In this document: positions 12,689 to 41,990 of the stretch, one piece after another
Position numbering within the stretch: the first letter of the stretch is position 1
How the letters are laid out: each line of letters begins with the position of its first letter
IMG/VR virus record: IMGVR_UViG_3300048117_000033
Span: 1 to 41,990 of that record
Length of the DNA stretch: 41,990 bases
Origin: a virus
Reading direction: 5' to 3' (one strand)
Position numbers and translations under genes: made by a program
The notes under the pieces: model-generated
What the model saw: only the letters and a program-made list of their open reading frames with translations
Told to the model about the DNA's origin: nothing
Database searches by the model: none

Positions 12689-13035
12689 TAGTATTTCCAC
12701 ATGACTGGATAGCTATCTCTAGTATCTACGTGTATAAAAGTCTTAGCCACTCCAATGCCTCCAAAGCCCATAGCCATCGCATTCTTAACTATCTGATATC
12801 TTTGAGCGCCTCCAGAGACTTTAATGTCTGCGGCAATCCCACGGGCGTGTGTGCCCGGAACAGTCTTACGCGCCTCAATGCTATGATTTTTACTTCTATA
12901 TCCACTAGTTATGATAAACGGAAACCCACAGTTCTCTCGCAGCTGATCTAGCTTTCTAATAAACTCGATATCCATTTCATTTTCGCCAGTCTCTTGACAG
13001 TCAAAGTCTGACAGTTTAAAATATTTAAACTCCAT
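12688..13035 (-). CDS. Endolysin, peptidase M15 family
   Basis: Zinc peptidase that cuts peptide cross-links of peptidoglycan at the end of infection. Zinc ligands H63 and D70 are in GTHARGIAADIKV and H102 is in TFIHVDTRD; SGYRS near 44-48 is the usual upstream motif. At 115 residues it is a single catalytic domain with no signal peptide or wall-binding module, so it needs the holin to cross the membrane. AAGGAG lies 5 nt before the ATG, and the start overlaps the end of the giant virion-protein gene by 11 nt. Confidence 0.92.
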   Translation of the reverse strand: MEFKYFKLSDFDCQETGENEMDIEFIRKLDQLRENCGFPFIITSGYRSKNHSIEARKTVPGTHARGIAADIKVSGGAQRYQIVKNAMAMGFGGIGVAKTFIHVDTRDSYPVMWKY

Positions 13036-16000
13036 TGTTACTCCTTAGTTTATTTGTTAATACCTCTGAAGCTACTAAGCCACCTTCTGCAAACATTGGT
13101 AATCCTTTTAGTATGTCTTCACGCATCTTATCTGTTACTTGCATTACTGGTAATTTAACTGGTTCACCGTTCTGCATTATTTCTTTTAGTTCAATTTTAA
13201 CACCATACTTTTTAGCGAAGTTACTATCTAAAAGTTTAATAAGAGTTTTATCATAGAACTGTTTCATTTTTTCTCCACCAGTTTCTACGCCATCAACGAC
13301 TTCAATCTGCTGATTTCTTTTTGCTTGCATCCGTCCAGTAGTTAACGCTACCTCATCATATCCACCATCAGCTGCTTCAATCATTGCTTTTCTTAATCCG
13401 AGTAGTGCCCATTTCTTTTCATTCTTAAACGGAAGATCTGGAACTTCTGGAGGCAGAGAATCGTCAATAGTTTTTATTTCAGCCCTGACACGTTTTTTAT
13501 TATCTACATGCTCAGCCTTGTTTAAAATACCATCTTCATAATAGCTGTTTATTTTCTGTAACTGCTCAACAAGCTCTTTCTTTTTATCTTTTAACTCAGT
13601 AACTTCTTCAACTGTAAGTTTATTTGTGCCTACATTTTCTTTAGTAATGTACGAACCCTTAGCTTTCTGATGGGCATCGCTTTGAATTTCATCAATTAAA
13701 AGAACTTTACTGTTTCCGTCTTTAGGCTTAACATCTGCTAAACGTAGGTGAGCCACAAAGTTTTTAAGAGTGGGGAAATGTGAGTGAGTGAAATCCTTAT
13801 CAATTTTTTTAAATCTTGTAGGGAGAGCAACTGTTATTTCTCTATAATTTTTGGTGTTACCGCCCTCAAAAGCAAAATCTAAGTGCATCCTGTTAGCTGT
13901 AAAGTCTAAATCGCCACCAATGCCCTTCCCTGTTTCCTGTTCCTCTATTCGCTTAAAGACTGATTCTACTAACGCTTCATAAGCGTCATCGCTTAGATCG
14001 TCCATACCTTCAAGCTCTCCGGGGGAGTTGTTTCGCAGCCATTGTATCGTTGCAAATTCAGGATCGTCTTCAAACATCTCTGCAATATCTTCAAACGAAG
14101 GCGCGTCAGTATCATTAGCCCCTACAGTACCTTTCTTAGTTTCAACATCAAAGTTGGTTTCTTTCAAGTGCTGCTGAATCTCTTCTTTAGTTACAGACGG
14201 CTTAGCGGCAAACTTATCTTTTGCTCCGGTCCACTCTAGCTCTTCGTCAGTAACACCTTTATCTCGAAGCCTTTTAAGCATGACATCACCTGTGCCTTCT
14301 TTTTGATCTAAGTTCCCGGCTTCTTTTTCTGCCTTGCTAAACAGACCTGATTCTTTTTTATCAGCAAAGTACTTTATAACTTTTCCAACGAGCTGACCTT
14401 TACTATACTTACGTCTTTCTTTGCTTTCAGAAGGTGTCATAAACTTAGCGGAGCTTTCTTTAATTAGCCTATCAATTTCTTTCTCGGCTTCTTTAAAGTT
14501 TTTAGCTTTAATCTCTGCTCCTAGTTTATTATTGTGTATATCCATAGGTCTACCGACAGTATCCATTGTCACGTATTCCCGAATGTTTGCAGCCGCTAGA
14601 GCTGCTTTAGGGTTCTTAGATCTTTGCGTGATAAACCCTAAAGCTAAGTGAGCTGCAGCGTCACCCTTACCATCATAAGCTTCTTTCTCTGGATATCGTT
14701 GGCGTTGGCTCTTAGCCCATTCTAGGTCCGCACCTTTAATGCCTAGCGCTTTTGCGATAACTCCACCCGAGTATTTGCGATTACGTACTTTGCCGCCCTC
14801 AGCCATCTTAAGACTTCTAACAGGGTTTAGCTCATCCATAAATGCTGCACCCGCTTCTTCTGCGTATGAAACTCCAGTATACTTGTTAATACGCGCAGAA
14901 GGATTTTTAGGTGCATTGGGAACTAACTCGCCTACCAAGCCTCCTTCAACCTTCTTAGTTCTTTCTTTTTTCTCAACTTCAATTTCTTGTAGAGGGTCGA
15001 TCAACGAAGTGTTTTTAAAGTTAGAATAAAGGCTGTGTAGCTCAGAGTAAACTTTTCGTGCTGTCTCATCCTTACCTAAAGGAGTCTTCTCGTTAATTAA
15101 AGCGCGGAGTTTTCTGTCCGGCTTATCAGGATAAAAGTCTCCGTTTATTAATGTGTTGGCTTCGCTTTTGCTCATACCGTGATCTCTCAAGTACTTCCGA
15201 GTTTCCCGAGTACCTATTAGCATTTCGGAAGCTTTGACTTTACGATAAAGATCTTGAGATAGTTTTAGTTTAGTTTCTTGACGTTGTTTATAACGACCAA
15301 CTATCTGCCCACTGCTTTTTCTATAATCAACACCGATAGAAATAACTTCTTGGGTTTTTCTTTTGTAATCCCTTACAGCAAACTTCATGGTATTTTCAAT
15401 ATCTAGCTCTTTGAATTTGAAGCCAGTCAAATGTGCAGCAAGCTCAGGCTTCCAGTCTTTAACCTTACCAGTACTTTTATTAGGTCTTTGATCGAAAGAT
15501 TTATATAGTGTCGTAGCGCTTCCGGGCATTAGGGTTTCACCTAAATGATATATAAAGTTACCTGTTTTTTCAGACATAGATAGCCCCGGAGTAAATAACT
15601 CTTTTCCGTTCCTGTCTCGACCGTTAGAGTTCCATACCGCAGTTGCTACATCTACAATAGCATCTGTTAAAATAGCTTCGTCTACGTAAGGCTTTAACAA
15701 TGTCATAGAGAAAGAGGCAGTAGCATCTAGAATACGTTTATCAAACTCTGCTTCAGTTATTTCTCCCTCCGTCCAAGACCTGTGTGCAGCACGGAAAGGC
15801 TCTTTAATGGCGCTATATGAATCAACAAACTGAGTATCGTTTGTGTATATCTTATCTCCAACACGCACCACGTTACGGGGCGAGTCTTTAGACCACGGAG
15901 TTTCACTAAGAACTGCAATTGCTTTCTGTTCTTCGTCTCCAAAGCCTGCCATCTGACCAGTAAAATTAGCTAAAGCCGCCCAACCTGTTGTAGTTACAGT

Positions 16001-18550
16001 AAAACCTGCAGCTCTTTTTAGTCCTCTAGCTTTTAAATCAGGGACACCTGACAGTATTTCCTTGCCTGACTGCTTAACAATATTCTTACTTGTTCTTACA
16101 ATTTCAGCAGGAAATGAAAAGAAGCTACCGATAGGGAAGTCCTTAAGAGCTTTAATACCTTTAGGGACTCTATCGTAGTTAGGCATTGTGTTACGTACAA
16201 TATCAGCTGCTTGTTCTTCTAAGACCTCAATAGGGGCTTCAGGCATTGCCTTACGAAGAGTCGCAAGCTCGCTGTTGTAGTAATTTATTTTATAGAAGTC
16301 GTCTGTAGCTACATATACTTTATCTAATAATGTTTGAGTCTCTTTAGATACGCCTATCTTTTCTAGGTTTTTAGATAGTCTGCTTGTTAAGTTATCTGCA
16401 TTAGCTTCATAGCCTGCATCTAAAAGAGCACGGAACTCATTTACTCTTACGTTTGTGTTGATAATGCCAAGCCTTAAATACTTACCATACAAAGCGTCTA
16501 ACTCTTTATCTCCACCTTGCTTAACAGAATTAGCTAGAGTTTTAAATGTTTGCTGCGCTTCACCACCATAAGGGTTAACACCGTTAGCTACACCGAACTG
16601 TGCACCACCTGTAAAGTTTCTAATGTGTGTAATGTGACTATATACAGTCTTCAGTTTTTGAGAAACGCCCTTTACAGTCAACATGCTTCTGTAGATGTTT
16701 CCAAAACTAATCCCGTCTCCCGCACCTGATGAAGGATCTAGAAACCTTGCAGTCTTGCCTTTAATTTCATCTAAAATTTCAGGGGTTGTGTACTGCCCGT
16801 CAAGGCTAGTATTAGTACCTGTTATCTGAGCACTGAAGGTGTTGTTGTCTCGAGGCTGACCTTCTTTAAAGATGTAGCCTCCTGTATGTCCAAGCTGCTC
16901 TAGGTTCTTATAAAACTTATTAGTTTCTAAAAGATTAACCATCTTACTTACAGTGATTAATACATTCTCACTAGGCTCAGTAACCTCACCCATTAAAGCT
17001 CTAATAGGGTCTGGGATATCTTTCTTTTGAGACAGGATATTTTTATTAACTTTCCGCACAGACTCAAAGTAGTTGGCAAACTCTGAAGGATCACCTTCTT
17101 TTAATATATTATCTACTTGATCCTTAGCTTGCTGTCGTGCAAAAGTTTCTGAAAGGTTGGGGTCTCGCTTAAGATTTAAATCAGTTAAAAAATCTTCTGC
17201 GTCTAAACGGACACTTTCAGTAGGTTTATAGCCTGAGTCTTCGAACAAACGATAAGAACGTCTAATGTACTGCCCAGAGTTCTCAACAATTGTTTCCTTT
17301 AAAGAATCTTTAACAGCGCTAGAGCCTACAAGTTTTGCAGACATGGTATCGATAAGTTCACGGGAGTTGATTACTTCTTCGGCAACATCTTTAGGAAGAT
17401 TAAACTTTTCAACAAGATCAAAAACTTTATCTTCATGCTTCTGACCTCTGGTCCACGATATGTCCTTAGATAATAAATCAGTAACAGTATCCACCACCTC
17501 TTTTTTTTCTACTTCGTTTACGATGCTGTTTAAAGATTTTTGAAGTCTATTGGAAATGTTTTCAGCATGAGCAATTACTTGGCGTTGTGCATACTGAGAG
17601 TCTTCAAAAGCATTGTAAGCCTTTGGAGTAAAGTATCCACGAGTAGTTAAAAAACGGTTTAAGAATTTTCTTACTTTGCTATTAGCTTGTAGTTGAACCT
17701 GTGCCGAACCTTCAGGAGTTTCGGTTAAAACTATTTTATCTTCAGGTACTTTTAAATCTGACGTTTCTTTAGCTTCCTTTAAATATTGATATACTAGCTC
17801 GCCACGTTCTTCATCTGTAAGCTCAGGCAGTTTCTTCTTAAAAGTTTTATAAGCTTTCGCTCCTGCCTTTACAGTGCCGCCTAGTAAGTCAACCATTAGC
17901 CCTATGCCGCCACCTTCACCTATTAACTTAACGCGCTGCTCTAGATGGCTATCATCCTCTTTAATAGACATAAAATCAGAAAAAGTTTTTAGGTCTCCTT
18001 CGTCTAGAAACTCAGAAGCAGCGTTAAATAAGTTAGGCGCATCTGTATCCATTAATGCCTGATCTGTAAGGATACCAGAGATAGTCCCCTTAAGAAAGTT
18101 ACCTGCTTTGGGTAGCGCAGTGCCTGCTGCTTTATAAAAGCCCATGCCGCCTGCTAGATAGGGGGCAAGACTAGCCACAGCGCCTGTTACAGTTTCTGTC
18201 GGCTGTACTTTGCCTTTTTCATCTATTAAAGAGCTTTTGAATTTATCAGCAGCTTCGTCTAGGCCTAAAAGTTTTAAAGGGGTCGCCAGTTTATCTACGG
18301 CTTGGGTGTTAGACTTGCCCTTTAACATTTCAGAAATTGCTTTTGTGTTAGTATCAGAAGGCAAAAAAGAACTTGCAATTCGAGTACCGATATCAATAGC
18401 TATGTTCTTAGGCTGCTCAGCTACATTTAAAGCTACTCTTGCCAAATCAGTAACAGGACTACCTGCGGGTTTTTCTCCAGTAAGTTCTTGTTTCTTTTTC
18501 TTAGCTTCTTCTGCTTTAGCAAAAAGCTGTCCGCTTGCTCGTATCGCCAT
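13025..18550 (-). CDS. Giant internal virion / ejection protein with polyvalent-type C-terminal modules
   Basis: 1841 residues. The N-terminal ~1100 residues carry segments typical of very large marine-phage virion proteins: FLTTRGYFTPKAYNAFED (~300-320), SGQYIRRSYRLFED, SHITHIRNFTGGAQFGVANG (~640) and FPIGSFFSFPAEIVRTS (~810). By position and size it is the counterpart of T7 gp16, ejected into the cell. The C-terminal third is modular. Around 1290-1345 is GKGDAAAHLALGF...MDIHNNKLG, resembling DUF6973-type domains; near 1430-1460 is GVTDEELEWTGAKDKF followed by VTKEEIQQHL; near 1590-1700 is HFPTLKNFVAHLR, LLIDEIQSDAHQK and WALLGLRKAMIEAADGGYD. The last two belong to the modules seen in phage and plasmid polyvalent proteins. 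AAGGA 9 nt before the ATG supports the start. Catalysis is unproven. Confidence 0.85.
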   Translation of the reverse strand: MAIRASGQLFAKAEEAKKKKQELTGEKPAGSPVTDLARVALNVAEQPKNIAIDIGTRIASSFLPSDTNTKAISEMLKGKSNTQAVDKLATPLKLLGLDEAADKFKSSLIDEKGKVQPTETVTGAVASLAPYLAGGMGFYKAAGTALPKAGNFLKGTISGILTDQALMDTDAPNLFNAASEFLDEGDLKTFSDFMSIKEDDSHLEQRVKLIGEGGGIGLMVDLLGGTVKAGAKAYKTFKKKLPELTDEERGELVYQYLKEAKETSDLKVPEDKIVLTETPEGSAQVQLQANSKVRKFLNRFLTTRGYFTPKAYNAFEDSQYAQRQVIAHAENISNRLQKSLNSIVNEVEKKEVVDTVTDLLSKDISWTRGQKHEDKVFDLVEKFNLPKDVAEEVINSRELIDTMSAKLVGSSAVKDSLKETIVENSGQYIRRSYRLFEDSGYKPTESVRLDAEDFLTDLNLKRDPNLSETFARQQAKDQVDNILKEGDPSEFANYFESVRKVNKNILSQKKDIPDPIRALMGEVTEPSENVLITVSKMVNLLETNKFYKNLEQLGHTGGYIFKEGQPRDNNTFSAQITGTNTSLDGQYTTPEILDEIKGKTARFLDPSSGAGDGISFGNIYRSMLTVKGVSQKLKTVYSHITHIRNFTGGAQFGVANGVNPYGGEAQQTFKTLANSVKQGGDKELDALYGKYLRLGIINTNVRVNEFRALLDAGYEANADNLTSRLSKNLEKIGVSKETQTLLDKVYVATDDFYKINYYNSELATLRKAMPEAPIEVLEEQAADIVRNTMPNYDRVPKGIKALKDFPIGSFFSFPAEIVRTSKNIVKQSGKEILSGVPDLKARGLKRAAGFTVTTTGWAALANFTGQMAGFGDEEQKAIAVLSETPWSKDSPRNVVRVGDKIYTNDTQFVDSYSAIKEPFRAAHRSWTEGEITEAEFDKRILDATASFSMTLLKPYVDEAILTDAIVDVATAVWNSNGRDRNGKELFTPGLSMSEKTGNFIYHLGETLMPGSATTLYKSFDQRPNKSTGKVKDWKPELAAHLTGFKFKELDIENTMKFAVRDYKRKTQEVISIGVDYRKSSGQIVGRYKQRQETKLKLSQDLYRKVKASEMLIGTRETRKYLRDHGMSKSEANTLINGDFYPDKPDRKLRALINEKTPLGKDETARKVYSELHSLYSNFKNTSLIDPLQEIEVEKKERTKKVEGGLVGELVPNAPKNPSARINKYTGVSYAEEAGAAFMDELNPVRSLKMAEGGKVRNRKYSGGVIAKALGIKGADLEWAKSQRQRYPEKEAYDGKGDAAAHLALGFITQRSKNPKAALAAANIREYVTMDTVGRPMDIHNNKLGAEIKAKNFKEAEKEIDRLIKESSAKFMTPSESKERRKYSKGQLVGKVIKYFADKKESGLFSKAEKEAGNLDQKEGTGDVMLKRLRDKGVTDEELEWTGAKDKFAAKPSVTKEEIQQHLKETNFDVETKKGTVGANDTDAPSFEDIAEMFEDDPEFATIQWLRNNSPGELEGMDDLSDDAYEALVESVFKRIEEQETGKGIGGDLDFTANRMHLDFAFEGGNTKNYREITVALPTRFKKIDKDFTHSHFPTLKNFVAHLRLADVKPKDGNSKVLLIDEIQSDAHQKAKGSYITKENVGTNKLTVEEVTELKDKKKELVEQLQKINSYYEDGILNKAEHVDNKKRVRAEIKTIDDSLPPEVPDLPFKNEKKWALLGLRKAMIEAADGGYDEVALTTGRMQAKRNQQIEVVDGVETGGEKMKQFYDKTLIKLLDSNFAKKYGVKIELKEIMQNGEPVKLPVMQVTDKMREDILKGLPMFAEGGLVASEVLTNKLRSNNGV

Positions 18551-24975: not shown

Positions 24976-27900
24976 TTATTCTCCTCCACCAATTGTATCT
25001 GGACCAAAGCTATGTATTGCCCTAGAGTTAGGTAAATTACCTGTTGTTGTTTTGAATTGTTTTACAATTCCTGAATATTCAGCGTATTCTGATTCGCTGC
25101 TAAACGCTAAGGTTTTAGTTTGTTTATTATAGCTTAAGCGAGCCAAGTCGTTAGACTCTAAAAACACATCTCGGTTAGCATCAAAAAGTTGTTTTTCTTC
25201 GTTATAGATTTTTAGAACTATAGCCTCATCGTTTAGCCTACCAGAGTTTCCAAATCTAAACAAGCTATATGTGTAATTAGAATCCATATAGATTTTTGTG
25301 CCATCAGTTCCGTGTACTATATCTATGTCTTGTGAGAAAGTAGTGTCTTCTAATTTACCATTAACATACAAAGAAAGCCTGTCGTTATAACGGCTGTTAG
25401 TAGTAGTGGACGTAGTATATGTCGGCCCATGTCCTGTAATAATAACTTGGTTCCACTCGCCATTAGTTAGGGCGTTGGCTGCACTGCTTAAAACAGCAGT
25501 CGAATAAGTAGTTCCAGTAGTTTTATAGAATAAGTTTACGCCATTACTGCTATCTACATTTAAAAGTGTTTGTTTCCCGTCATCGTCGCCTATAGTTATA
25601 ATGTCAAAACCAGTGTCGTTACTTGTTTTTTTAATCCAAAACGAAAGGCACACGCCCGCTATGTTGTTGTTGTTGGAGTAACCATCCCATGTAACTACTG
25701 GGTTATTTGTAGCTCCTGTATCTGCTGTATATCCAGATAACGAGTTGCCTGTAGCTACATTAACTCTTTCTACATTATTAGTATCTGCTTGATCTCCGGG
25801 GACAATTACATTTGTAGAAGATCCTTTGTTTCCTTGAGTGTAAGGCCACGCCCCGTAAGAAAAACTATCGTTAATCGTTTCGGTAGTGCTGCCTGCTTTT
25901 TTATCGTTAAATATAATAGTTGATCCCGAAACATCGGTAGTCCACCCAGATATTTTATCTGCTTGAATTATAGAATATACAGAGTCTTCCTCTTTATCTT
26001 CTATTCCGTTTTTAAATATATGGTCCATGAGCATTGTTAAAGATATTTTAGAATTATCACTATTTGTAGATATGAACGCTTTAGCTCGCTCGTCCATAGC
26101 ATATCCTTCTTTTGTTTGCGGAGGAAAGACTAAAGTGTTGCTCGGTTGTGATGTGGTCGCAGTGTGGCTTTGATGATAGAAAGACACGTTGCCAATGCCA
26201 CCGTTGTTAGCCTGATCGCCCGGGGCAACTCCGTAACCTTTGTAACCCACTAAGTATGTGTTATTATCATTGCTCTCTAACATCGTAAAGACTCTACCGT
26301 CCACAACTCTTATAGCTTTTGCTCTTAGACCTGTTGTATTATCTACTGAGAGAAGTCCCGGCTCGTCTGTTTCGTTGTGGAAGACTTCAGTATGTCTACC
26401 GCTTCCTGCTCCTACACAGCCAAAATAAACACTAGCTTTTGGAAGACCGCACTTAGCTCCTGTCTCATTGGTAAATACTGACGGATTAAAATCTACGTAA
26501 CCTGTCGATGCGTCTGTTCTTTCGCTGTAAGAAATTCCATAGTCTATTACTCTGTCTACATGTAGAGTATCGTCGTGCCCTAGTTTTCCTGAGTTACATA
26601 TTTCAATAGTATTAGAAGCTCCGCTACTTGATCCTACATATTTTACTATTTGATCTTCAGCAAAATCATAAATGAGTCCCTTGTCAACAGTAGAGTGGCT
26701 GCTTTTTAAAAATATTTTTCCATTTTTTGCTTGTAGAAAATTTTGACCATAGCTATTATTAGTGCTATAATAATAAGTCTGATTGCTAGCAGTATGGTAA
26801 TTAGCAGGAGGTATAACTTTCCACATTGGGTTTCCGGGCTTAGTTAAATCGTAAATGTAGATCTGACCAGTGCCACGAATATCTATAGCTACTTTTTTAG
26901 GGAACTTTTTAGTTGAGCTTCTATAAGTAGCATCAGCATCTTCAAGATACCAAGAATGGTATTCTGTTTTATTTCTCCAAGCTCCTCCATCTGTATCATA
27001 AGCAGTATCGTAAACACAAACAGCGTATGCTGTACTGCTGTGTAAATTTTCTGTTGTTTCTTCGCCTATCTCGCTAGGTAAATCGGTTAAATCGAAACCT
27101 CCCTCAATTGCTAAATTGCCTGTTATTGTAACATCTGAAGCTTCTAGTTTAATAGTCTCAGAATCTAACTTTAACTCAGCTTGAGTATTACCCGCGTCAG
27201 TAACAGTTGATGATATAGAAGAGAACGTAGTAGGGACATTAGTTTTGTTACCTTGTATTTGCAATGTAAAAAGCTTAGAGTCATCACTAACATTGGTATC
27301 TCTAACAGTTACTATTGAAGGACCGTATAAACTGTTAGATGAAAAGATTTTAACAGCTTGACCTGCGCTACCTGCGTCTACTATAAGTGTAGAGTCACTG
27401 TTGTTGTCTCTGCCTAATATATTGCTATAGTCTACAGTTCCACCTATAGCTGCCGTGCCGGCTACTGTTACATCGCCAGTAAACGCAGCACCCGATAGGT
27501 CTGCTTTGCCTGAGATGTCTACTGTAGCGTCAGCAAAAGAAACATTACCGCTTCCGTCAGTTACTAATGCTTGTCCGCTTGTACCGTCAGTGCTTGGAAG
27601 TGTAAAGCCTCCTGTAGCTACAGTACCAGATGCCTTAATGTTACCATTAACGTCTAAGGCTTCAGAAGGCGTTGATGTGCCTATCCCTACTCTATCATTA
27701 GTAGCATCAACATACAGCGTATCTGTGTCTACAATAAAGTCTATATTTCCAACCTGAACAGCAGTCGCAGTTGTATTTAATCGCGACACGTTGTCATAGT
27801 ACAAAGTAACGCCACCGTCTTTACTTGCATTTATCATGTATTCATCTTCATCCGACAGGACCGCAAACGCACTTCCGTTTGTTTTTAATACTAAAGCTCC

Positions 27901-30828
27901 TTCACCCGTGTCTTCAATTATTGAATTACCACTGTCATTATGATAAATCGCTAAGTCACTGTCTGTACCAAACTTAGCTTTTACTCCATCGTTAAATAAT
28001 ACATCGCCAGTAAACGTAGCACCCGATAGGTCTGCTTTGTTTGTATCTAATGCCGCTATATCTACACCGTCTACTGTTCCTGAAAGGGAGATGTCTCCTG
28101 TAACGGTAATACCATCTGAAGTTGTTATTAATCTTTCTTGACCTTGCCCGTAATGAAGGCTTACTTCGTAGTCGCCTTGCCCCGTAAGTTTTATCCCTTT
28201 AACTAAAGGTATGTTACCACTACCTGATAGCTGTAAGTTGGTAGCAGATGAAATAACGAAGTTATTGTAAGAATGTAAGTCTGTAACACCACTAGAATTT
28301 GTTGATAAGTAAGTATTATCCCCTCCAAAATCATTGTCTCCAATTTCAAGTCTAAAAGTTTCGGGAATAAGAAGACCACCATCTGCTTCTATAAGTCCAG
28401 TAAACGTAGCACCTGCTAAGTCTGCTTTGCCTGAGACGGTGCTAGAGTCTACACTATAAACACCTGCACTATCGCGCTTCATAAATCCGTCGCTAGTAAA
28501 GTCACCATCAACAATAGCGTTAGCTCCTAATGTTGCTATATCTACACCATCTACTGTGCCGCTTACTGCGATGTTTCCAGTAACATCTAAAGCTTCTGAA
28601 GGATCATTGTTTTTAATACCTACATTGCCATCAGTATCAATACGGATTCCTTCGTTACCGCCTGCAACAAGGAATAAATCTCCGTCTGTTTCCGTGTTTT
28701 GGATAGTCATGTTTCCTGCTTCGGTTGCGTGTGCGCTACCATAAGAAGCAATAAAGCTTGACGCTGCGGCTGTATCAGTATTTAGATTGATACGCGAAGT
28801 ATCTGTTTGTGTTACTGAGCCAAACGTAGCTAAGCTAGCATCAGCATCAGCGCTGTCTACATTTAAAGAAGAAACAAGACTGGTCGTGTTCAAGCCTAGT
28901 TGTTTCGCACTTGCGTCCCAGAAGATACCAGAAGTTGTGCCGTCCTCTGCAAAGAAAGTAATGTCACCGCCTTCAGAGATTTTTAAGCGCTCGACACTCA
29001 TACCTTGACTTGGGTTTGTAGCTATTGTAATGCCTGTTCCATTACCGGCTTCTGCTGCGCTATAGTCAGCACGTATGTAGGCTTGTCTGGAATCCTCATT
29101 TTTAAAAAATATATACTGGAGATCAGCGTCTGTACTATCGCTCGATAATTGAAGGTTGTTCGCGAGGTAAAGCCTGTTAAATCTGCTGCTACCTGAGCCT
29201 AAATTAATCTCCCCGTCGTTGGCCGGGTTGGGGAGTAAATTGTCGCCTAGTGTTATTTCTGAATTCTGAGAACCTAAGGTTAGAGTAGAGGTAGCAGAGG
29301 ATAAAAACGCTTGATTCTGTACTCTAAGCCCTAGACCATTAGTAGCGTAAACCTGTAATGCGCCTAATGAGCCTGCCAGATTATTAGTAGTATCTCGATA
29401 GTCGAACGAAATATACTCATTCGCTGAGTCTACATCAAAACGGGTTACTTGTAGCACTGCATCGGCTGCAGTTGATTCTGAGGTAAAGTATCCCCTACCG
29501 ATACCGCTGAGCACTACTCCTTGTTCGGATTGAGCCGTGCCTATTGCTTCATGTCCGATTAAGAAGTTTCCGCCATCAAATCGAGCAAATTCATTGACAC
29601 CAGCTCCGAATGTTAAAGGTTTACCGACCGTGCCGTTTATTGAAACTTTTCCAAGAGTGCTATCTGTGCTTCCTACGCCCTCTACAGTTATTGTACCAGT
29701 AACTCCGTCAGCTTCTAATTTTAGTTCAGAGCTAGGAAGAGTAGTGTCACCTGTTGCTTCAGCAAGATTTTTGACTTTTAGTGTTACAGGATTATTTAAA
29801 TCAGTATTTTCAATATCTAACATTGCACCAGGATTCTCAGTACCAATACCTACGTTTCCTGCTGAGGTAATACGCATAAGTTCCGTGTGCGTTGCGCCTG
29901 ATTGGAACTTAATATCGTCTGTTCCTGCGTGTAGAATTAAACCGCCCGATAAATCGCTGTCGGTTGATAGAACTCCTGAGTCCTGCCAAGACGAGACACC
30001 TGTATAATCACTAGCTGTTGCAGTTAAAGTTATCTCTCCATTATCGCTACGTGCAGTTACGTACGCTCGCGCCAGTGCTCCGTTAACATTATTATTGGTA
30101 AGGATACCAGTGTCAGCGCTAATACTGTGGCTAACGTGCAGTCGTGCTGAGGGGTTTATTCCTATGCCAACATCGCCTGATGAGTCGATAAGCATACGTG
30201 TAGTAGAGTTTGTTTCATCCCGAAAAAGTAATTTACCGCCACCGCCTATAATATTAAAATCAGGATTATGGTCGGTATCTGTAAATACCAGTGTAGGCAC
30301 AGTGCCTTGTATATTAATGTTTCCAACAACGTCTAATGCTTGTGCAGGACTAGTAGTACCTATACCTACTCTATCATTAGCGCTATCAACATATAGCGTG
30401 TCTGTATCTACAGTTAAAGTAGTAGAAGTTACATTGGTGCTCGTTACATCAGTTGAAGTTACGGTAGTAATGTTAGCTGCAAGAAACGGATTAGCTACAG
30501 TACCTATATCGACATTAGAAGCTACAGGAATTAATGCATTTTCAGAAACATTTAAAATTTCAGTAGATGTATTGCCACCTACTTCTACAAAAAATTTAAT
30601 AAGATTATTGGTTCCGTCAATCTGAATTTTGTTGTTGAAATCTGGATCGCCAATTTTAGCAATAGCTCCACCTTGACCAGAAGAGCCGTCGTGTGCGTGG
30701 CCAGTTTCGCTTGGGTCTGTGCTGTATGAAAAAGCGTCTTCTAGTTTTCCAAAGTCATTGTTAAACAGTGTAGCTGATATTACATTACCGTTTGCGTAAG
30801 TGCTTTGTTTGGTGTATCCTGTAGACAT
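24976..30828 (-). CDS. Giant tail fibre with C-terminal LamG-like lectin domain
   Basis: 1950 residues. The N-terminus (TGYTKQSTYANGNVISATLF) is likely the virion-binding part. The middle is a long chain of fibre repeats: RVGIGTTSPAQALDV near 155, RVGIGTSTPSEALDV near 1050, several KADLSGATFTG and SGTVDGVDIA units. From about 1260 comes a distinct domain with YAVCVYDTAYDTDGGAWRNK and TEYHSWYLE, seen in other marine-phage tail proteins. Residues ~1725-1890 (LSFWIKKTSNDTG ... WNQVIITGHG ... LSLYVNGKLEDTTF) match a concanavalin/LamG-type sugar-binding fold. It should recognise the host surface. GGAG lies 7 nt before the ATG. Several repeat modules are also near-identical in DNA. Confidence 0.9.
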   Translation of the reverse strand: MSTGYTKQSTYANGNVISATLFNNDFGKLEDAFSYSTDPSETGHAHDGSSGQGGAIAKIGDPDFNNKIQIDGTNNLIKFFVEVGGNTSTEILNVSENALIPVASNVDIGTVANPFLAANITTVTSTDVTSTNVTSTTLTVDTDTLYVDSANDRVGIGTTSPAQALDVVGNINIQGTVPTLVFTDTDHNPDFNIIGGGGKLLFRDETNSTTRMLIDSSGDVGIGINPSARLHVSHSISADTGILTNNNVNGALARAYVTARSDNGEITLTATASDYTGVSSWQDSGVLSTDSDLSGGLILHAGTDDIKFQSGATHTELMRITSAGNVGIGTENPGAMLDIENTDLNNPVTLKVKNLAEATGDTTLPSSELKLEADGVTGTITVEGVGSTDSTLGKVSINGTVGKPLTFGAGVNEFARFDGGNFLIGHEAIGTAQSEQGVVLSGIGRGYFTSESTAADAVLQVTRFDVDSANEYISFDYRDTTNNLAGSLGALQVYATNGLGLRVQNQAFLSSATSTLTLGSQNSEITLGDNLLPNPANDGEINLGSGSSRFNRLYLANNLQLSSDSTDADLQYIFFKNEDSRQAYIRADYSAAEAGNGTGITIATNPSQGMSVERLKISEGGDITFFAEDGTTSGIFWDASAKQLGLNTTSLVSSLNVDSADADASLATFGSVTQTDTSRINLNTDTAAASSFIASYGSAHATEAGNMTIQNTETDGDLFLVAGGNEGIRIDTDGNVGIKNNDPSEALDVTGNIAVSGTVDGVDIATLGANAIVDGDFTSDGFMKRDSAGVYSVDSSTVSGKADLAGATFTGLIEADGGLLIPETFRLEIGDNDFGGDNTYLSTNSSGVTDLHSYNNFVISSATNLQLSGSGNIPLVKGIKLTGQGDYEVSLHYGQGQERLITTSDGITVTGDISLSGTVDGVDIAALDTNKADLSGATFTGDVLFNDGVKAKFGTDSDLAIYHNDSGNSIIEDTGEGALVLKTNGSAFAVLSDEDEYMINASKDGGVTLYYDNVSRLNTTATAVQVGNIDFIVDTDTLYVDATNDRVGIGTSTPSEALDVNGNIKASGTVATGGFTLPSTDGTSGQALVTDGSGNVSFADATVDISGKADLSGAAFTGDVTVAGTAAIGGTVDYSNILGRDNNSDSTLIVDAGSAGQAVKIFSSNSLYGPSIVTVRDTNVSDDSKLFTLQIQGNKTNVPTTFSSISSTVTDAGNTQAELKLDSETIKLEASDVTITGNLAIEGGFDLTDLPSEIGEETTENLHSSTAYAVCVYDTAYDTDGGAWRNKTEYHSWYLEDADATYRSSTKKFPKKVAIDIRGTGQIYIYDLTKPGNPMWKVIPPANYHTASNQTYYYSTNNSYGQNFLQAKNGKIFLKSSHSTVDKGLIYDFAEDQIVKYVGSSSGASNTIEICNSGKLGHDDTLHVDRVIDYGISYSERTDASTGYVDFNPSVFTNETGAKCGLPKASVYFGCVGAGSGRHTEVFHNETDEPGLLSVDNTTGLRAKAIRVVDGRVFTMLESNDNNTYLVGYKGYGVAPGDQANNGGIGNVSFYHQSHTATTSQPSNTLVFPPQTKEGYAMDERAKAFISTNSDNSKISLTMLMDHIFKNGIEDKEEDSVYSIIQADKISGWTTDVSGSTIIFNDKKAGSTTETINDSFSYGAWPYTQGNKGSSTNVIVPGDQADTNNVERVNVATGNSLSGYTADTGATNNPVVTWDGYSNNNNIAGVCLSFWIKKTSNDTGFDIITIGDDDGKQTLLNVDSSNGVNLFYKTTGTTYSTAVLSSAANALTNGEWNQVIITGHGPTYTTSTTTNSRYNDRLSLYVNGKLEDTTFSQDIDIVHGTDGTKIYMDSNYTYSLFRFGNSGRLNDEAIVLKIYNEEKQLFDANRDVFLESNDLARLSYNKQTKTLAFSSESEYAEYSGIVKQFKTTTGNLPNSRAIHSFGPDTIGGGE

Positions 30829-41061: not shown

Positions 41062-41076
41062 CTTTGTTAATCCTTT

Positions 41077-41139
41077 TTAGGCGGGTACTACTTTTGTGTA
41101 CTTTACGCCACGATATATAAATACAAGTTCTTTAGTCAT
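41077..41139 (-). CDS. 20-residue micro-ORF leading the virion operon
   Basis: ATG at 41139 to TAA at 41077 encodes MTKELVFIYRGVKYTKVVPA. AGAGG lies 9 nt upstream, and the frame is the first start downstream of the leftward promoter with a good ribosome site. The LxFxYRGVKY pattern recalls very small cyanobacterial and phage proteins (DUF4278-type), so it may be a real peptide. Alternatively it is a leader peptide that tunes translation of the terminase gene, which begins 15 nt after its stop. Confidence 0.5.
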   Translation of the reverse strand: MTKELVFIYRGVKYTKVVPA

Positions 41140-41178
41140 CGTATGATACCTCTTTTAGGTTTCTACGATTCGTTTTAA

Positions 41179-41194
41179 CGCATGAACCTATGCG
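41179..41194 (-). other. Small hairpin in the leader of the virion operon
   Basis: CGCAT and ATGCG form a 5-bp stem with a 6-nt loop in the leftward leader between the promoter and the micro-ORF. There is no T-run. The rest of 41140-41230 has no gene that I can support. Confidence 0.3.
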
Positions 41195-41239
41195 AGCTGT
41201 TGTTCTGGAGCTACCCAGTTCTTTATAACTATATAGTAT

Positions 41240-41268
41240 ATTATACACCTGTTTTAGAGTTTTGTCAA
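41240..41268 (-). promoter_or_regulatory. Leftward sigma70 promoter for the terminase-virion operon
   Basis: On the - strand: TTGACA (41268-41263), a 17-nt spacer, and TATAAT (41245-41240). Both hexamers and the spacing are exact consensus. Transcription should begin near 41233, about 95 nt before the micro-ORF and 170 nt before the small terminase. Use of a perfect host-type promoter for the virion genes is notable. Confidence 0.88.
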
Positions 41269-41285
41269 GCAGTTTATTAAAGTAC

Positions 41286-41314
41286 TTGACAAAACTCATA
41301 TCCATGTGTATAAT
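41286..41314 (+). promoter_or_regulatory. Rightward sigma70 promoter for the early module
   Basis: TTGACA (41286-41291), a 17-nt spacer and TATAAT (41309-41314), all exact consensus, with a likely start near 41321. It reads into the structured leader and then the gene that begins at 41970. The two start sites are only about 88 bp apart and the -35 boxes 17 bp apart, so two polymerases are unlikely to bind both at once. Confidence 0.88.
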
Positions 41315-41556
41315 AACTATATAGCCCCCCGGGTTATATATATATATATTAGATGAAATATACGTACTTATCTACACACCGGTTTAAAAGCTTAAAAGGT
41401 TTCTTTGCCTTTAAAGTCTTTAAAGCTGCCGCCCTAACTGGTTTACATCCAATTTCACCCCAAAATGTATAAGAATGTATATATATACGGGGTACCCCCC
41501 CTGGGCACCTGCCTACCCCAAAGACTCTAAAGTCTTCACGACCCGCACATCGTCTC

Positions 41557-41800
41557 CAAAGACTTTAAAAGTCTTCAAAGATTCCAGAGTATCGAACCTA
41601 GTTTACAAAACTAGAGAGACTTTGAAGCCTTTGTAGATTTTTAAATCTAAAAAATATCTCCAAAGTTTTCAAAGGTCTACAGAGTTTTTGAAGCATAAAG
41701 CTTCAACTCCAGAGAGCTTTGGAGATTTGGAAGATTCGAGACTCCCGAAGGGAGGATTGGCGCAAAAAACTTCACCGCTTCAAAGACTTTAAAAGTCTTC
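41557..41800. repeat. Direct repeat pair of a 20-nt palindromic unit
   Basis: CAAAGACTTTAAAAGTCTTC is present exactly at 41557-41576 and 41781-41800. Each copy contains a palindrome with 8-bp arms round one base, so each copy could be a protein-binding site or an RNA hairpin. Confidence 0.8.
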
Positions 41801-41856
41801 TAAATAAAATCTATGGCGCATACAACAAATTTATTATATAAATTCTCTACCGATTT

Positions 41857-41894
41857 TAGATATATATAAACTTTAAAATGTTTATATATATCTA
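41857..41894 (+). other. 15-bp perfect A/T-rich stem in leader
   Basis: TAGATATATATAAAC (41857-41871) is the exact reverse complement of 41880-41894, with an 8-nt loop. It is followed after 4 nt by the larger stem. Confidence 0.75.
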
Positions 41895-41898
41895 TTAT

Positions 41899-41965
41899 GT
41901 TCTCCAATTATTAATATTTAAAAAGAAGTTCTTGTGAACTTTTTAAATATTAATAATTGGAGAAC
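41899..41965 (+). promoter_or_regulatory. 27-bp perfect stem that sequesters a ribosome site
   Basis: Positions 41899-41925 are the exact reverse complement of 41939-41965. The 13-nt centre can add a TTC/GAA pairing over a TTGT loop. Twenty-two of the 27 pairs are A-T. The right arm holds the GGAG (41959-41962) that serves the ATG at 41970, and its partner is CTCC at 41902-41905. In RNA the ribosome site would be closed unless the stem is melted, cut or bound, so a temperature- or RNase-controlled switch is possible. Confidence 0.65.
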
Positions 41966-41969
41966 TATT

Positions 41970-41990
41970 ATGGTTTCAGCAAATTTCAGC
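41970..41990 (+). CDS. Start of a rightward gene (partial)
   Basis: ATG at 41970 with GGAG 7 nt upstream opens a frame MVSANFS that runs off the window. It is the first gene after the rightward promoter and the long leader, so it is probably an early gene. The ribosome site lies in the right arm of the 27-bp stem. Too little is visible to name a product. Confidence 0.65.

Follow-up and report, generated by a model that had tools for sequence, protein, structure and literature searches.

A conserved, probably structured leader RNA at the early promoter junction of HMO-2011-type marine podoviruses

Introduction

In the lambda pL-nutL-N leader, an early promoter is followed by a hairpin with a short linear motif, then by an RNase III hairpin at a ribosome site and a small basic first gene. 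Early polycistronic RNA of the T7 type likewise carries long RNase III hairpins, placed shortly before a ribosome site. In phage HK022, which uses the host RNA polymerase, the put elements (putL and putR) are promoter-proximal RNA structures that follow an early sigma70 promoter and suppress termination via the beta' zinc-binding domain (PMC9378689). Phages also make large RNAs rich in covarying helices, such as GOLLD and ROOL, whose function is poorly understood (PMC12286853).

Here we analyze the junction between the early and structural operons of an uncultured virus. The window, that is, the whole stretch of DNA analyzed, is a complete IMG/VR record of 41,990 bases, classed as linear. Among deposited phages, HTVC115P, HTVC103P and HTVC104P are nearest to it, and Roseobacter phages and HMO-2011 match more weakly, which places the virus with the HMO-2011-type marine podoviruses (PMC9038755). 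These phages are among the sea's most abundant. Keyword searches of two genome papers turned up no description of the leader region: PMC9038755 does not mention intergenic regions, promoters, RNA polymerase or noncoding RNA, and PMC6918029 uses "intergenic" for an rRNA spacer only. We propose that the leader is very probably a hitherto undescribed structured RNA produced as infection begins.

Results

The leader starts at a divergent promoter pair

The plus strand of the window carries the replication genes (DnaB-type helicase-primase, family A polymerase and endonucleases), and the structural genes lie on the minus strand, a series that reaches terL and terS. The contig breaks off 21 bases into gene 1, the first gene on the plus strand. 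Two perfect sigma70 promoters with 17-base spacers stand head to head at this junction (Table 1), the plus-strand -10 element TATAAT occupying 41309-41314. We note that the pair, at 41240-41314, forms the arms of a 38-nt inverted repeat (82% complementary), driving the early and structural operons apart. The RNA start predicted from the plus-strand promoter coincides with the 5' hairpin, and the distance from this promoter to the gene 1 ATG at 41970 is about 650 nt, the leader length originally proposed. The original prediction also held that no gene crosses the hairpins, and indeed no open reading frame of at least 60 aa overlaps 41062-41969.

RNA polymerase was not found among the window proteins scanned, so the host polymerase would serve throughout. 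By comparison, phage N4, with its hairpin promoters, itself encodes the giant virion RNA polymerase that uses them; here Pfam detects no polymerase domain in the 1950- and 1841-aa proteins of this incomplete contig. These two giant minus-strand proteins (1841 aa at 13025-18550 and 1950 aa at 24976-30828) have weak Pfam matches to DUF6973 and pentapeptide repeats, all under the curated cut-offs.

Perfect hairpins are concentrated in the leader

The leader was originally singled out for its CAAAG/CTTTG pentamers, and the count holds: ten occur in 41403-41800 against 0.84 expected from mononucleotide shuffles of that interval (n=2000, maximum 6), and no other 400-nt stretch of the contig has more than five. 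The actual unit is a hairpin of AGACTTT and AAAGTCT rather than the pentamer. This unit (AAGACTTTNAAAGTCTT) occurs at 1.53 per kb in leaders and 0.010 per kb elsewhere in the contigs, a roughly 150-fold difference, which indicates that sequence, and not pairing alone, is reused. The 20-mer CAAAGACTTTAAAAGTCTTC is repeated exactly at 41557 and 41781, as first noted, and exact copies of the AAGACTTTAAAAGTCTT unit in the window number only two, 224 nt apart.

The claim of at least ten dyads stands when imperfect or outside-interval ones are counted; perfect hairpins with arms of at least 6 within 41403-41800 number seven (beginning at 41409, 41521, 41559, 41598, 41634, 41688 and 41783), compared to 0.76 in dinucleotide shuffles (maximum 4). 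Similarly, seven perfect hairpins with arms of at least 7 are found in 41316-41970 against 0.50 in shuffles, and other stretches of the contig contain 0.23 on average and two at most. The element thus exceeds the interval first described: it also includes the 5' hairpin (from 41318), a conserved core (41422-41518) and the long hairpins LH1 (41857-41894) and LH2 (41899-41965). Among its smaller parts, the CTCCCGAAGGGAG hairpin with ATTGGCG recurs in five compared leaders besides the window, in two of them less exactly. The motif CTRGTTTAC occurs twice in the window's leader; a second copy is present in 49 of 135 leaders versus 0.7 in shuffles, at a median of 222 nt past the core start.

Table 1. 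Features of the promoter junction and leader, in window coordinates
Feature	Coordinates	Strand	Basis
sigma70 promoter toward terS and structural genes	41240..41268	-	TTGACA-17-TATAAT, 12/12 consensus
sigma70 promoter, leader RNA and early operon	41286..41314	+	TTGACA-17-TATAAT, 12/12 consensus
5' hairpin at expected RNA start, TATATAGCCC CCC GGGTTATATA	41318..41340	+	arm swaps, 38 relatives
Hairpin before core, CTTTAAA-GTC-TTTAAAG	41409..41425	+	55 distinct variants
Conserved core, CTGGTTTACA-N14-AAAATGTATAAG...TATATATA...CACCTGCC	41422..41518	+	nhmmer E 7.7e-23
Hairpin AAGACTCTAAAGTCTT	41521..41536	+	perfect-hairpin search
Hairpin AAGACTTTAAAAGTCTT, repeated unit copy 1	41559..41575	+	unit density in leaders
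Hairpin CTAGTTTACAAAACTAG, with second CTRGTTTAC core motif copy	41598..41614	+	motif in 49/135 leaders
Hairpin TAGATT-TTTA-AATCTA	41634..41649	+	13 distinct stems in relatives
Hairpin TTGAAGCATAAAGCTTCAA	41688..41706	+	perfect-hairpin search
CTCCCGAAGGGAG hairpin, then ATTGGCG	41742..41762	+	5 other leaders
Hairpin AAGACTTTAAAAGTCTT, repeated unit copy 2	41783..41799	+	exact repeat
Long hairpin LH1, 15 bp	41857..41894	+	both-sided pair changes
Long hairpin LH2, 27 perfect bp	41899..41965	+	3' arm with gene 1 ribosome site GGAG 41959-41962
Gene 1 start, MVSANFS..., cut by contig end	41970..41990	+	reading frame

Hairpin arms covary and the plus strand is preferred

Alignment of whole leaders with MAFFT and RNAalifold gave almost no consensus structure; the modules are too variable to be aligned as a whole, and hairpins were therefore tested singly. 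At least four of them covary: the 5' hairpin, LH1, LH2 and the 41634 hairpin. For the 5' hairpin, the mean MFE over 38 relatives is -6.85 with a leader's own arms and -5.33 with arms swapped between relatives; the best of 100 swaps reaches -6.07, so that the own partner arm is better in 100 of 100. In LH1, 9 of 15 pairs have changed on both sides and 92.4% of positions pair (0/500 shuffles). LH2 is 95.5% paired across 11 relatives (counted on ungapped arms; MAFFT alignment of the arms lost register), all 19 of its variable pairs having changed on both sides, and its outer arms hold their pairing at just 54% identity among relatives. The 41634 hairpin keeps a fixed place with 13 different stems, 98.7% paired, and has a covariation score of 1.03 versus 0.31 (0/500 shuffles). 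Arms that drifted independently in relatives had been named in advance as evidence against structure; the arms covary, and the structure reading survives.

Strand preference is clearest in the hairpin before the core, where the 55 distinct variants that keep four or more Watson-Crick pairs give 299 Watson-Crick, 40 G-U, 8 A-C and 38 other cells. The excess of G-U over A-C indicates that the plus-strand RNA is the form kept. In 61% of 64 relatives, the array is more stably folded than shuffled sequence at z below -3, with a slight advantage of the plus over the minus strand (p 0.02). Folding of the whole leader in the window gives the stronger z on the minus strand, which we judge to stem from the palindromic long hairpins. 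The long stems comprise 1457 Watson-Crick, 6 G-U and 6 A-C pairs, so G-U is no commoner than A-C, a scarcity partly built in by a search that scored G-U as a mismatch. Such nearly pure Watson-Crick stems are unusual for stems maintained solely as RNA; template switching or selection for perfect double-stranded RNA could maintain them. The tally over all single-mismatch stems (G-U 22 to A-C 44) reflects base composition and carries no strand signal.

Taken with the perfect promoter, the covarying hairpins and the G-U bias of the plus strand back the original suggestion of a structured phage non-coding RNA, and we consider it highly probable that the leader is a structured RNA. No Rfam family is matched by the leader at the gathering threshold, and the GOLLD and ROOL covariance models give no match at gathering score or in permissive scans. 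Other permissive Rfam matches, mostly of microRNA models to long AT hairpins, are weak and were rejected.

The core is conserved at the early promoter junction of relatives

Searches by terS, terL and DNA pattern yielded 239 virus loci, not counting that of the window. The core profile matches 206 fetched loci at E<=0.01, at the same junction wherever the neighbours are readable, and most relatives have a strong promoter of sigma70 type upstream. The sequence order of the core in relatives is CTGGTTTACA, 14 bases, AAAATGTATA, TATATATA and CACCTGCC; its distance to the promoter varies among about 200 fetched loci while its sequence is conserved. A broader profile also places weaker matches at this junction in HTVC103P, HTVC115P, HMO-2011, CRP-1 and CRP-2. 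Searched in a small database, these cultured-phage matches have E values of 0.0002 to 0.03 and are weak taken alone; their position adds weight. A scan of GTDB genomes for the exact core pattern found none, and blastn of the leader against phages returned short chance matches only.

Mutual information reveals no Watson-Crick covariation within the core, and a sequence conserved in this manner suits a protein- or DNA-bound motif equally. In the core at 41490-41510, after TATATATA, some close relatives have a G-run where others have a C-run (L097, L087, L149 and L163), and the run differs even between the near-identical leaders L097 and L087.

Downstream of the core, short perfect hairpins are lacking in 36% of relatives, more distant relatives have hairpins of other sequence, and the 3' modules differ between subgroups. 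Three leaders (L084, L090 and L099) have another 3' module with a common GTAGCTTGGAAAACGTCAAAACGACA block in place of LH1/LH2. Among 117 terS/terL loci, contig ends accumulate 250-1000 nt upstream of terS in 35; they are scattered there, consistent with assembly breaking off in a hairpin-rich leader.

The long hairpin LH2 covers the gene 1 ribosome site

In the window, LH2 spans the gene 1 ribosome site, and most of ten listed relatives show the same arrangement; in L143 and L149, LH2 is present and the site lies outside it. In many relatives, the first gene encodes a protein of 131-188 aa in which a Lys/Ala/Pro-rich linker accompanies a helical domain and a C-terminal coiled coil. No Pfam family above the curated cut-off and no PDB relative was found for the family, and structure searches of PDB and BFVD gave no convincing neighbour and no known RNA-binding fold. 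The helical domain is confidently predicted in the first-gene family of L148:4162-4578 and its relatives. In other relatives that carry the core (L086 and L005), the first gene is unrelated to gene 1, so the leader is independent of gene 1.

Discussion

Several readings of this element can be weighed against these observations. We tentatively favour a cis-acting early leader RNA in which the core acts on the host polymerase and an RNase III-type LH2 closes the leader. Host RNA polymerase would make this RNA as the 5' leader of the early operon from the perfect sigma70 promoter, and the emerging transcript would fold in order, first the 5' hairpin, then the hairpin with the core, then the run of small hairpins. 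Much as HK022 put and lambda nut sites do, the core may act in cis to adapt the polymerase to transcribing the early genes over long distances, and putative RNase III cleavage at LH2 would trim the leader and open the gene 1 ribosome site. Neither terminators nor extra promoters exceed chance in the early region, and the plus-strand genes of the window contain 7 intrinsic terminators against 6.2 expected. There is thus no direct sign that antitermination is needed, and we hold it as a preferred reading, not a demonstrated one.

The main rival is an ornate RNA acting in trans, with RNase III freeing the leader at LH1/LH2 as a stable molecule of about 550-600 nt comparable to GOLLD and ROOL. Its size and many covarying hairpins would suit such an RNA, as would a 5' hairpin at the expected start and long hairpins that could form its end. 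We nevertheless find it somewhat unlikely, given its location immediately upstream of the early genes, and an extendable cis leader better fits 3' modules that vary by subgroup and an array absent in 36% of relatives than a fixed particle would. More specifically, that the processed leader is a stable trans-acting RNA of a new large structured class, its near-perfect palindromes kept by active correction, is doubtful; if true, an RNA would be among the first infection products of a dominant marine phage group. The reuse of AAGACTTTNAAAGTCTT within and between leaders, at its 150-fold density, could also point to a decoy or antagonist RNA whose repeated hairpins titrate a host RNA-binding or defence protein, a very unlikely reading, though a decoy was among the roles first suggested, since the hairpins of distant relatives differ in sequence and the window has two exact unit copies only. 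A translational switch would instead have gene 1 or another phage protein bind the leader hairpins or CTRGTTTAC and regulate its own translation via LH2. The two copies of CTRGTTTAC, the Lys-rich coiled-coil family of gene 1 and the ribosome site within an LH2 arm accord with this, but the core is kept where the first gene is unrelated and gene 1 has no known RNA-binding fold in the searches made, leaving such a switch rather unlikely.

An origin or packaging site at the leader, with the palindromes acting as duplex or cruciform DNA, is unlikely, although near-perfect palindromes, long stems nearly free of G-U, an AT-rich conserved core and a position at the divergent junction all speak for it. 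Against it stand the G-U bias of the hairpin before the core and stems swapped wholesale with pairing retained. The iteron origin put forward in the original prediction is not supported either: stem sequences vary with pairing retained, and in place of several in-register direct repeats, the repeats are hairpins of differing sequence. Packaging by the adjacent terminase, raised as well, is weakened, as the core accompanies the early promoter and not terS, which lies about 8 kb away in HMO-2011, 4.6 kb in CRP-1 and 3.7 kb in CRP-2, with the core at the early promoter junction in all three; the scattered contig ends in the leader also define no single terminus. As a whole, the initial interpretation is thus partly supported.

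A conserved structured RNA at the head of the early operon would hint at how HMO-2011-type phages, lacking an RNA polymerase of their own, regulate transcription. The leader is a defined element, testable in cultured hosts, and represents a structured RNA family not included in Rfam. It differs from GOLLD and ROOL, which are Rfam families often found near tRNA islands, in being an early-operon leader. Compared with T7-type hairpins, LH2 is a helix of 27 perfect bp that extends over the ribosome site, with putative cleavage there. With lambda pL-nutL-N it shares a promoter, a hairpin with a linear motif, and a long hairpin at the first-gene ribosome site; a match to boxA or boxB is not established, gene 1 is unrelated to N by the searches made, and extra hairpins are present here. 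The hairpin and linear CTRGTTTACA motif follow the boxB/boxA order of rRNA leaders, with no direct boxA match. With HK022 put, the leader shares a position downstream of a perfect sigma70 promoter in a virus with no RNA polymerase among its scanned proteins. Two stem-loops make up put, which measures about 70 nt; the present leader, at about 650 nt, combines a core with many hairpins. The likeness is one of layout, and a similar action on the polymerase may be supposed by analogy.
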